From positions 1,888,378 through 1,952,377 of the forward strand of contig NZ_LT800497.1 of the NCBI RefSeq assembly GCF_900166635.1: a DNA stretch of 64,000 bases, given 5' to 3'. Below the pieces are notes generated by a model. That model had not been told where the DNA came from and ran no database searches. It saw only the letters and a list, made by a program, of their open reading frames with translations. This DNA is from Oceanobacillus timonensis (lineage in GTDB: Bacteria; Bacillota; Bacilli; Bacillales; Amphibacillaceae). The translations under genes and the position numbers were made by a program. Positions 3,734-7,218 of this stretch are shown piece by piece; within the stretch, counting starts at the first letter, position 1, and every line of letters begins with the position of its first letter.

Positions 3734-4120
3734 CTATTCCGTTAACAACGGATAGTATCCTTCTTCATTATGCGTTTCAGTCCCAACTAAAGGAGGATTG
3801 AAAACGCAAACCATACGCATTTGTGTGCGTGCACGAAGCCGGTGCTTATCGTTTTCATTTAAAAGGTACATTGTTCCGGGCTTAATCTGGTATACATCCC
3901 CCGTTGATACCTTTTCAATTTCTCCCTCGCCTTCGATGCAGTAAACTGCTTCAATATGGTTTTTATACCAGAAGAAATTGTCTGTTCCTGCTTTGATGAT
4001 GGTGTCGTTCATACTGAAGCCGACACCTTCCTTTTTTAAAATGAAGCGGCGACTTTCCCAATTTTCGGATTTTGTTTCTGCTTCTGTGCCAAGTAAGTCT
4101 TCCAGTGATTTTACAATCAT
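3734..4120 (-). CDS. ectC: L-ectoine synthase EctC
   Basis: A 128-residue cupin-fold enzyme of typical length (family about 130). It cyclises N-gamma-acetyl-diaminobutyrate to ectoine with loss of water, the last step of ectoine synthesis in the cytoplasm. [15 protein letters not shown] at the start, [19 protein letters not shown] (about 49-67) and [10 protein letters not shown] (about 88-97) match the family, including the cupin metal-site Glu, Tyr and His positions. The site GGAGAATAAAGGA precedes ATG. It is third in the operon, 40 bases after ectB, and is followed by a strong terminator. Confidence 0.97.
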
Positions 4121-4160: not shown

Positions 4161-5447
4161 TTATTGTTTTAGGACATGTTTTATACTATCTTCCAGAATC
4201 TCTAATCCTTTTTCCAATCCTTCCTGATCAATAATCAATGGTGGCAGGAATTTTACCACTTCATCATCTGGACCAGAAGTTTCTACAATCAGCCCGCGAT
4301 TGAATGCCTCCGCACAAATGTCTTCTGCCAATCCTTCTTTGTCGATGGCGATGCCTTGCATCAGACCTCTGCCTTTGGCTTCTCCGTTTAATTCCGGGTA
4401 TTGGTCAATGAGTCGATTGATTTCTGATTTTAGAAATGCACCTTTTTCTTGTATAGCACGGGCAAATGCATCATTTTCCCAATTTTTCAGCGCTTCGGTT
4501 GCGGCGATAAAGGCCATATTGTTACCACGGAAAGTGCCATTATGCTCGCCAGGGCCCCATTGGTCATACTCTGATTTAATGAGCGTAATCGCCATTGGCA
4601 GACCGATGCCGCCAATCGATTTAGACAGGCAAACCACATCCGGTTTAATTCCAGCCGGTTCAAAGCTGAAGAAGGTACCAGTCCGTCCATTTCCAGCCTG
4701 TACATCATCTACAATCAGAAGGATGTCCCAGCGTCTGCATAGTTCTTCCACTTTTTTCAGCCAATCCATACGTGCAGCATTAATTCCGCCTTCACCCTGA
4801 ACGGTTTCCAGAATAATTGCGGCAGGCAGTGCGACACCACTTCCGCTATCTTCTAAAAAGCGGTCCAGATAAGCAATCGAATCATGGTCCTCTACATAGT
4901 TGTCAAATGGCATCGAAACAGCGTGGTGCAACGGTACACCGGCACCATGACGTTTGAAGGAGTTTCCTGTCACAGACAGCGAGCCAATCGTCATTCCATG
5001 AAACGCATTGGTAAAGCTAATAACCGTTTCCCGGCCTGTTATCTTTCTGGCAATTTTCAGTGCGCTTTCCACTGTATTGGTGCCAGTAGGGCCGGGGAAC
5101 ATGATTTTATAATCCAGATTTCGTGGCTTGAGAATAACCTCATTAAAACGCTCCAGGAAATCTTGTCTAGGAATCGTAGCCATATCAAGGCTATGAATCA
5201 CACCATCATTTTTAATATATTCAATTAATTTCTCCTGCATCGCATCATTGTTATGGCCATAATTCAATGTGCCTGCACCTGCGAAGAAATCAATATATTC
5301 TTTTCCATCTGTATCCCACAGCTTGTAGCCTTTTGATTTTTCAAAAACAGTCGGCCAGCCTCTGCTGTAGCTTCTTACTTCCGATTCTAAATTTTCAAAC
5401 GTTTTCATTTTCGCATCATTTAATGTTGCTGTTGTCAATGAAATCAT
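4161..5447 (-). CDS. ectB: Diaminobutyrate--2-oxoglutarate transaminase EctB
   Basis: A PLP-dependent class III aminotransferase of about 428 residues that converts aspartate semialdehyde and glutamate to L-2,4-diaminobutyrate and 2-oxoglutarate, the first ectoine step. Recognisable parts are [20 protein letters not shown], the [15 protein letters not shown] loop, [10 protein letters not shown], the PLP-binding [11 protein letters not shown] and the lysine context [14 protein letters not shown]. The start is uncertain: the AAAAGGA site abuts ATG 5447, whereas TTG 5438 has a better 9-base spacing. The ectA stop is 9 bases upstream, so the genes are coupled. Confidence 0.96.
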
Positions 5448-5456
5448 TCCTTTTAA

Positions 5457-6005
5457 TTATTTATTTTCTGTCGCAATCGGCCCAATCGTAAATAGTAACT
5501 CATCTTCATGTTCTTCCTCTTCATCCGGAAAGTCTTCTGATATGAAATAATCACTGATGTGACAATCCGTATCAAGCTTTTTAGCAAGACCCTTAAATAA
5601 AGATTGGGAAGGTTGATTGGATGGAGAAACGGTTGCTTCTACATAATCAATCTCATTACAAGCTTCACGTTTTAATAATTGGCGCAGCATTTTCGTTGCT
5701 AATCCGTTACCTCGAGCAGAAGCATCTACAGCAACTTGCCAGATAAATAGTTTATTCGGATTATTCGGATTTTTATACCCGGAAATAAATCCGAGGGTAT
5801 CTCCGTCTTTTTCTGCAACGATGGAGGTTTCTGAAAAGATATCACACCACATTAAATAGCTGTATGAAGAATTGAGGTCAAGCACCTTGGTATCTTTGAT
5901 CAGTTCCCAAACGGCTGCTCCATCACCTTTTGCAGGTTCGCGAAAATAAAAATCATTTTCTTTTTCAATTGTTAATGTCGTGTCTTTTGTTGTGTTTGTA
6001 TTAAT
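5457..6005 (-). CDS. ectA: Diaminobutyrate acetyltransferase EctA, probable ATT start
   Basis: A GNAT-fold enzyme that acetylates L-2,4-diaminobutyrate to N-gamma-acetyl-diaminobutyrate with acetyl-CoA. The conserved region runs from REPAKGDGAAVWELIKDTKV through LDLNSSYSYLMWCDIF to the acetyl-CoA loop RGNGLATKML. The first ordinary start codon (GTG 5885) would remove about 40 conserved N-terminal residues. The frame stays open upstream to an in-frame TAA, and the only well-spaced start behind AGGAGGTGAGAGC is ATT at 6005. That gives 182 residues, the usual EctA size. ATT use is inferred from spacing and homology; a base error there is the alternative. Confidence 0.9.
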   Translation of the reverse strand: MNTNTTKDTTLTIEKENDFYFREPAKGDGAAVWELIKDTKVLDLNSSYSYLMWCDIFSETSIVAEKDGDTLGFISGYKNPNNPNKLFIWQVAVDASARGNGLATKMLRQLLKREACNEIDYVEATVSPSNQPSQSLFKGLAKKLDTDCHISDYFISEDFPDEEEEHEDELLFTIGPIATENK

Positions 6006-6040
6006 GCTCTCACCTCCTGCGTGGATTTTTTACTTACCTA

Positions 6041-6072
6041 TATAAGATTAACATAAGCAGAAATAACGTCAA
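6041..6072 (-). promoter_or_regulatory. ectA: Possible ectA promoter
   Basis: TTGACG on the minus strand (6072-6067) could be a -35 box, followed after 16-22 bases by AT-rich TAATCTTATATA (6050-6039). The -10 match is poor, so the assignment is weak. Osmotic control cannot be read from it. Confidence 0.3.
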
Positions 6073-6501
6073 AACGTATAAAGTGGTGAATAACGTGATT
6101 ATTGATGATGAGAAGGGGTGAGTGTAAAATGATTGCCATTGGCTATAAATAGCTTTGAATATAATAGAAATAATCCGTTTTATACAATTATGAAGGAAAA
6201 CAGATTAAAAAATAATAATGTTCTTCTTTAATTGGAAATTTTCATTTTCGGAAATGGACTGGATGTTACGTTAAATCATTGCGCTTACTCGTTCCATCGA
6301 AAGGCTTTTGTAATATTCCCGCTTTAAAATGAAGAAAACTTGTTATTACTAAGTGAGAGGCAGGGCAGCCAGTAACGGCCCAATTCGTTCCGGCCTGCAG
6401 GATGTAGGTGACAAAGGTATTGCTGCGCGACGTCACGAACTTAGCCTTTGTTCCTCTTCATTCAGTGGGGTGGAAAGATCCCCACTGAATGAAGTTTCAC
6501 T
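6073..6501. repeat. Gene-free stretch ending in a perfect hairpin of a dispersed repeat
   Basis: No supportable gene. The last part holds a perfect 14-bp inverted repeat, TTCATTCAGTGGGG (6457-6470) and CCCCACTGAATGAA (6480-6493), followed by GTTTCACTTTATTTTT. Very similar sequence occurs at about 9431-9455 (GCTGAGTGAAGTTTCGTTTT) and 38674-38696 (CACTGCGTTAAGTTTCGTTT), so this is probably a dispersed intergenic element. The 6357-6456 part is GC-richer than its surroundings. The hairpin may also terminate the deacetylase gene. Confidence 0.5.
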
Positions 6502-7218
6502 TTATTTTTCATCCAGCTCTTTCATTTCAGAAAGTGTCACGGTTTCGTATCCATGTTCCGTTAGATAATCAAGAATAAGTGGAAGTGCCTTCACGGTTTC
6601 TTCTCTATTACCACCTGCATCATGGAAAAGAACAACATCTCCAGGAGATACATTGCTGATGACATCATCAGCAATCGATTGATAGTCTACGTCGCTCCAA
6701 TCTTTTGTATCCTGATCCCAGGACCATAAAACAACGGATAGTTGGTTCTTTTTCGCTTTATCAACAATTGCATTATTATATTCACCGCCGACGGGCCGGA
6801 AAAGCTTTGGCCGGGTCCCTGTTATGGCGTATATGATATCTGAGGTTTCCTTCATTTCTTGATTAAGTCGAGATAACTTTGTGGTGTGGTCATAAGTATG
6901 ATTACCAATTTCATGTCCTTCTGAAAATTGCCGGTAAAGAATATCTGGAAATTTTTCTGCATGAGCACCGAGGACAAAAAAAGTAGCTTTTGCCTCGTAA
7001 TCCGCTAAAATATCGAGAACAGCTGGAGTATAAATCGAATGTGGGCCATCATCAAATGTCAGAGCGATCACTTTTTCCTCTGTTTCAGCATCCCAAAAGA
7101 TATCTCCATCTTTTTCATAGTCGAATCTATCTTTTGCATGTATTGGATCTTGGGCTAATAAGAAAAAACAAACAGTTAGCAGTAAATAAGGGACGGTATG
7201 TTGTATTTTTTTCTTCAT
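6502..7218 (-). CDS. Secreted polysaccharide deacetylase (NodB domain)
   Basis: A 238-residue protein with an N-terminal signal peptide (MKKKIQ, then a hydrophobic run to about residue 28). The carbohydrate esterase 4 motifs appear in order: TFDDGPH (motif 1, near residue 54), HEIGNHTYDH (motif 2, metal-binding His pair), RPVGGEYN (motif 3, divergent from RPPYG), WSWDQDTKDW (motif 4) and VLFHDAGGN (motif 5). It should remove N-acetyl groups from peptidoglycan or another N-acetylated glycan outside the membrane. It is monocistronic. The exact substrate is open. Confidence 0.9.
   Translation of the reverse strand: MKKKIQHTVPYLLLTVCFFLLAQDPIHAKDRFDYEKDGDIFWDAETEEKVIALTFDDGPHSIYTPAVLDILADYEAKATFFVLGAHAEKFPDILYRQFSEGHEIGNHTYDHTTKLSRLNQEMKETSDIIYAITGTRPKLFRPVGGEYNNAIVDKAKKNQLSVVLWSWDQDTKDWSDVDYQSIADDVISNVSPGDVVLFHDAGGNREETVKALPLILDYLTEHGYETVTLSEMKELDEK

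Follow-up and report, generated by a model that had tools for sequence, protein, structure and literature searches.

A conserved ATT/ATC start codon at ectA of Oceanobacillus timonensis and its relatives as a probable brake on EctA synthesis

Non-canonical starts in described systems

The textbook example of an ATT-start gene is infC, which in Escherichia coli is repressed by its own product through its start; in the same species the AUU start of pcnB limits expression. The ectA gene described here shares its AUU start with pcnB, but the latter is a single gene from another phylum. It differs from infC in that the infC product is the codon-sensing factor itself, whereas ectA is an unrelated biosynthetic gene. 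Streptomyces sigR has a GTC start and is repressed by IF3, as established by experiment (PMC5472188). Like ectA, sigR is a stress gene standing first in its operon, with a genus-conserved non-canonical start that is misannotated in databases and a very extensive Shine-Dalgarno (SD) sequence, AGGAGGTG; unlike ectA, it uses GTC instead of ATT or ATC and encodes a sigma factor rather than an enzyme (PMC5472188). In Staphylococcus aureus, non-canonical starts are described for cvfC1 (AUU), ccpN (AUA) and infC (AUA), that of ccpN also being kept in B. subtilis; in reporters, AUU and AUA starts with an extended SD give about 10% of the AUG level when the medium is poor, and the ccpN start gives up to 30% of it in rich medium (PMC13009471). 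These cases resemble ectA in being conserved, extended-SD-directed starts of the Bacillota, and differ in the genes concerned (PMC13009471). In vitro, IF3 disfavours weak third-base pairs (PMC10158994).

The route from osmotic stress to ectoine synthesis has been described as far from understood, and the discussion of osmotic control in the consulted part of that source concerns transcription (PMC5924519). A search of open-licence papers by title and abstract found no report of a non-canonical ectA start, and the accessible text of a Marinococcus paper gives ATG for its ect genes.

The ectA locus and its start region

The window, a 64,000-nucleotide stretch of Oceanobacillus timonensis DNA, carries ectA, ectB and ectC in that order on its minus strand. 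The gene ectA (5457..6005) encodes L-2,4-diaminobutyrate acetyltransferase, 182 aa when read from ATT. Its open frame of 190 aa matches TIGR02406 with 198.4 bits (cut-off 120.6) over model positions 1-156 of 157, and the gene is otherwise intact; over the best segment, EctA of O. jeddahense is 95% identical, that of Oceanobacillus sp. CFH 90083 91% and that of O. sojae 90%. The following ORFs are ectB (4161..5447; 5447-4161 as read) and ectC (3734..4120; 4120-3734 as read), the latter with an ATG start and named from its sequence and operon position. The ORF list starts ectB at ATG 5447, which abuts its SD; a likelier start, chosen by eye, is TTG 5438-5436, spaced from AAAGGA.

An in-frame TAA (6030..6032, minus strand) closes the EctA frame upstream, and from there the minus strand reads AAA ATC CAC GCA GGA GGT GAG AGC ATT AAT ACA. 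The original prediction held that the conserved N-terminus of EctA is encoded ahead of the first usual start codon, in an open frame lacking ATG, GTG and TTG, and that translation begins at ATT 6005; the sequence bears out the first two points and strongly supports the third. Back to the TAA at 6032-6030, the frame holds none of the three codons ahead of GTG 5885 (5883..5885, minus strand), the first usual start codon, which falls at residue 48 of that frame and lies within the conserved region. Solved EctA structures, representing three distinct sequences, align from residues 10, 18 and 22 onward, and alignment residues P11, D15 and G16, all upstream of this GTG, are invariant in 19 of 19 relatives; the true start must therefore lie further upstream. 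In that region the extended SD AGGAGGTG (6011..6018, minus strand; -19.7 on an approximate stacking scale) precedes the proposed start codon ATT (6003..6005, minus strand), which is 7 nt after GGAGG. A variable N-terminal tail of 19 codons (5946..6002, minus strand) then leads to the conserved FREP; in relatives this tail varies in a codon-like pattern. Judged from sequence comparison, it is near certain that ATT is the ectA start of this Oceanobacillus, in view of its conservation, its spacing from the SD, the coding signal that begins there and the lack of a usable alternative.

Further upstream, Rfam places a Bacillaceae-1 RNA (RF01690; 6394-6460, minus strand, 46.6 bits against a gathering threshold of 35) 390 nt from ectA, between ectA and a polysaccharide deacetylase-like ORF (6502-7218), on the same strand. 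An RNA switch in the leader was considered and set aside, Rfam having given this RNA only and the ectA loci of 20 relatives lacking it. The RNA structure predicted over the ectA start (-9.7 kcal/mol, z -0.16) is nothing unusual, a promoter scan of the minus strand from 5950 to 6500 found none, and no plasmid records with similar DNA were found. Frameshifting from the GTG inside AGGAGGTG was also rejected, because the SDs of many relatives contain no GTG.

Conservation and distribution of the start codon

EctA was present in 119 of 159 genomes of the host's family (f1), and all 123 matching loci were read. The start call was codon-blind, in that the best SD register on an approximate scale was picked first and only then were the codons that follow it in frame noted; the class with ATT/ATC alone comprises loci with ATT or ATC 5-10 nt after GGAGG and no canonical codon 5 to 16 nt after it. 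The original prediction had proposed an alignment of EctA N-termini among relatives; comparison of their starts found ATT/ATC kept, alone at the SD-spaced position, in 101 of the 123 family loci. Of these, 99 were called by the program and two (L063 and L079) were set by hand because the program took the wrong SD; the two are less clear, since a TTG, itself too near the SD, stands two codons ahead of their ATT. The other family loci have GTG followed by ATT (11), GTT (4), ATG (3), GTG (2), CTG (1) and TTG (1), while a twelfth GTG-ATT locus, L106, was put in the ATT/ATC class on account of the short distance, 4 nt, between its GTG and the SD. Canonical codons are absent within 24 nt upstream in 82 of the 101 loci, back to the upstream stop in 57, and from that stop to the conserved core in 30. 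The distance from GGAGG to ATT/ATC is 7 or 8 nt in 135 of 147 loci, and the same layout recurs in the independently sequenced O. jeddahense, O. sojae, O. polygoni, Lentibacillus persicus and Virgibacillus alimentarius. An odd start kept across so many salt-tolerant relatives has the look of a selected brake, not of a sequencing error.

Several variants occur within the family. Gracilibacillus-like loci (g4; L061, L062, L074, L080, L081 and others) read GTG-ATT-AAT at the ectA start. In another group (g55; L092, L094, L097, L113) ectA has GGAGGTGA with GTT at 9 nt instead of ATT/ATC, and this GTT is a possible start, like the GTC of sigR. Genomes with two ectA copies also occur, with ATT at the SD-spaced start of one copy and either CTG (G067; L048 and L060) or TTG (G065; L075 and L066) at that of the other.

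The codon itself varies in a restricted manner. When loci with GTG-ATT are counted in, 112 family loci have ATT/ATC, as ATT in 67 and ATC in 45, and T and C have interchanged at least 16 times among them on the EctA tree (22 overall). These 112 were chosen for having ATT or ATC, and the other 11 of the 123 were checked separately; there the matching codon is CTG, TTG, GTT (4 loci), ACT or ACA after a GTG, or ATT directly after ATG (3 loci). ATG or ATA thus occupies the position in none of the 123 family loci. Fourfold sites in these genes have T, C, A and G at frequencies of 0.27, 0.12, 0.43 and 0.18 (61% purine), all 18 fourfold columns hold both A and G, and ATA makes up 160 of the 986 Ile codons. 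Interchange of T and C without ATG or ATA, despite purine-rich fourfold sites and the use of ATA elsewhere in these genes, shows that the position behaves neither as a free site nor as a plain Ile codon.

Substitution patterns were compared in 39 locus pairs, each locus used once, drawn from 113 eligible pairs. Between the start and the conserved core, substitutions at codon positions 1, 2 and 3 number 56, 53 and 142, and synonymous changes make up 98 of the 169 single-base codon changes, where about 22% would be expected. In the stretch lying 60 to 18 nt ahead of the start, the three positions are even (242, 246 and 232). Protein-like substitution downstream of ATT/ATC and not upstream of it lends indirect support to translation from that codon. 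The median length from start to core is 17 codons at ATT/ATC loci and 14 at ATG loci.

Three controls bear on the start rule. The EctB frame, used as a query, was found at 265 of 268 distinct ectA loci, 121 of them in the family. The same rule gave ATT/ATC alone at 0 of 265 ectB loci against 134 of 268 ectA loci before the hand settings, and a looser rule ignoring canonical codons beyond 10 nt gave 14 of 265 against 141 of 268, ectB being an imperfect control because it was searched over a different region and has another start context than ectA. The host genome was sampled over 464 kb (20 stretches of 20 kb besides the window) containing 373 long ORFs, 188 of which have a strong SD on the approximate scale; the SD-spaced codon is ATG in 104, GTG or TTG in 37, ATT or ATC in 7 and ATA in 1, with none in 39. 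Among the seven ORFs with only ATT/ATC at the SD-spaced positions, ectA alone has no canonical codon in the scanned stretch; each of the other six has at least one, within two codons after the ATT/ATC in four cases. For infC, 30 loci were fetched of 43 matches, and all 30 have ATT after GGAGG, at 9 nt in 29 and at 8 nt in one, so that ectA has its layout in common with infC of the same genomes. Both genes show a conserved start behind an extended SD, although infC has ATT at 8-9 nt whereas ectA has ATT or ATC, mostly at 7-8 nt.

SD strength was ranked with an approximate stacking table of our own, and on this scale, suited to ranking only, the median over the same 110 family loci is -17.6 for ectA (the stronger) against -11.5 for ectB. 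The SD is also stronger at the 147 ATT/ATC loci than at the 79 ATG loci (p about 2e-13, kinship ignored), a difference that fits partial compensation for a weak codon. In 106 of 147 loci the start codon is directly followed by A, which may assist base pairing to the tRNA loop.

Scoring of all 268 distinct ectA loci, those of the family among them, gave 134 with ATT/ATC, plus the two set by hand, and 79 with ATG. Outside the family, ATT/ATC starts were found in f2 (13/13), f3 (5/11), f7 (3/7) and f35 (1/9), at single loci of f14, f15 and f32, in both Thermoactinomycetaceae loci (2/2) and in 8 of 29 further named Bacillaceae loci; they were absent from f25 (0/16), f6 (0/8) and f28 (0/4). ATG starts prevail in f25 (13/16), f35 (8/9) and f6 (7/8). 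The 58 named Bacillota loci comprise 26 ATT/ATC, 23 ATG, 4 TTG, 1 GTG-ATT, 1 CTG and 1 ACG, with 2 lacking a call, and none of the 22 named non-Bacillota loci scored as ATT/ATC, although the SD pipeline performs poorly there and 18 of these 22 gave no usable call. Both EctA subfamilies (FRKP...LDLNSSYSY and FEKP...LDQNSxYKY) include ATT/ATC starts. On a FastTree tree of 243 rows, from which 25 rows without a clear start were excluded, ATG and non-ATG starts require at least 15 changes, gain and loss not being separable in direction. As many other lineages use ATG, the ATT/ATC start is unnecessary for ectoine synthesis.

Of 13 database EctA proteins, two (P0073 and P0104) appear to start at the ATT, the others beginning upstream of the SD or downstream. 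The N-termini of P0003, P0020, P0023, P0037, P0047, P0071, P0073, P0095 and P0104 are variously placed, and the starts chosen in databases include a canonical codon further upstream, an ATG or TTG inside the gene, ATA and the ATT codon. Starts placed in so many ways indicate that ectA N-termini and 5' regions are often wrong in databases; the ATT start may already be present, uncommented, in individual records.

Alternative readings and the proposed role of the start

Three readings would deny that ATT/ATC is the start at some or all of these loci. A true ATG at 6005-6003 might be masked by sequencing error, assembly error or gene decay, and this strain is represented by a single assembly; the recurrence of the layout in 101 of 123 family loci and in independently sequenced named species, together with an otherwise intact gene, makes such an error very unlikely. 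Translation from GTG 5885 into a shortened enzyme is scarcely credible either: it would use the first usual start codon of the frame, but at residue 48 this codon comes after the residues (10-22) from which structures align and after the invariant P11, D15 and G16, and no SD is visible by eye in the bases before it. A less remote, though still improbable, proposal concerns some of the relatives, in which a GTG or TTG near or within the SD would be the real start and ATT/ATC an internal Ile codon. A canonical codon does lie within 24 nt upstream in 31 of the 136 ATT/ATC loci, an in-frame GTG that is a possible start overlaps the SD in Halobacillus (L145, L147, L277), the Gracilibacillus GTG one codon before ATT may be a start, and several database EctA entries begin upstream of the SD. 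In most such loci, however, the canonical codon overlaps or precedes the SD; four Gracilibacillus loci (L069, L070, L090, L114) have GTT in place of the GTG and retain ATT, and this proposal is excluded for the window and for the 75 of 136 loci with no canonical codon upstream at all.

It could also be that ATT/ATC is the true start but a historical relic without regulatory meaning, its low efficiency being offset by a strong SD. The stronger SDs of the ATT/ATC loci would suit this explanation, as would the fact that ATG lineages produce the same enzyme, and that only 15 changes between ATG and non-ATG are needed among the 243 tree rows speaks against it. A relic should, moreover, sometimes become ATG or ATA, which happened at none of the 123 family loci despite the repeated interchange of T and C, and we regard a mere relic as unlikely. 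The best reading is that the ectA start is a selected weak start, probably sensitive to IF3, that throttles EctA. A role as a brake of interest for osmoregulation, as the original prediction had it, is consistent with the avoidance of ATG over many lineages, the unusually strong SD and the infC-like layout. Taken as a whole, we put at about 0.9 the probability that AUU/AUC is the genuine ectA start in this Oceanobacillus and in most of its family, a start selected by a strong SD that should be slow and held down by IF3, with a low dose of EctA as the likely effect.

In the mechanism we propose, the strong extended SD would position the 30S subunit on the ectA start, where fMet-tRNA would pair with the A and U of the codon and mismatch its third base. 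Through this mismatch initiation would be slow and should be held down by IF3 as for infC; IF3 tends to reject initiation complexes mismatched at the third base. We infer that initiation at the ATT would be weak and limited by IF3, the likely outcome being that a single ectABC message yields EctA in a low and tunable amount compared with EctB and EctC.

The simplest view of its purpose is that the start would fix a low EctA dose relative to EctB and EctC. An osmotic role may also be inferred. In halophilic Bacillota the fidelity of start selection could control osmolyte synthesis, with EctA tracking the IF3-to-ribosome ratio, and perhaps cytoplasmic ions, and rising with slow growth or salt; we offer this tentatively and consider it doubtful. 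Transcription is certainly also involved, since ectABC of V. pantothenticus responds transcriptionally to salt and cold (PMC5924519). Halobacillus halophilus accumulates ectoine under high salt and during stationary phase, with a lag between ect transcripts and ectoine (PMC2412884). Its ectA (L147) has ATT as well, although its SD is overlapped by a GTG. If the osmotic proposal is true, an AUU/AUC start would place ectA in one IF3-gated set with infC, and such gating could help to explain the late, stationary-phase ectoine of H. halophilus. The gene would join the few known lineage-wide non-canonical starts, here in a metabolic enzyme, and where a Bacillota operon serves for ectoine production, EctA may be limited by its native start. 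An ectA start kept weak throughout the family would suggest that ectoine synthesis is also controlled at a second point, translation.
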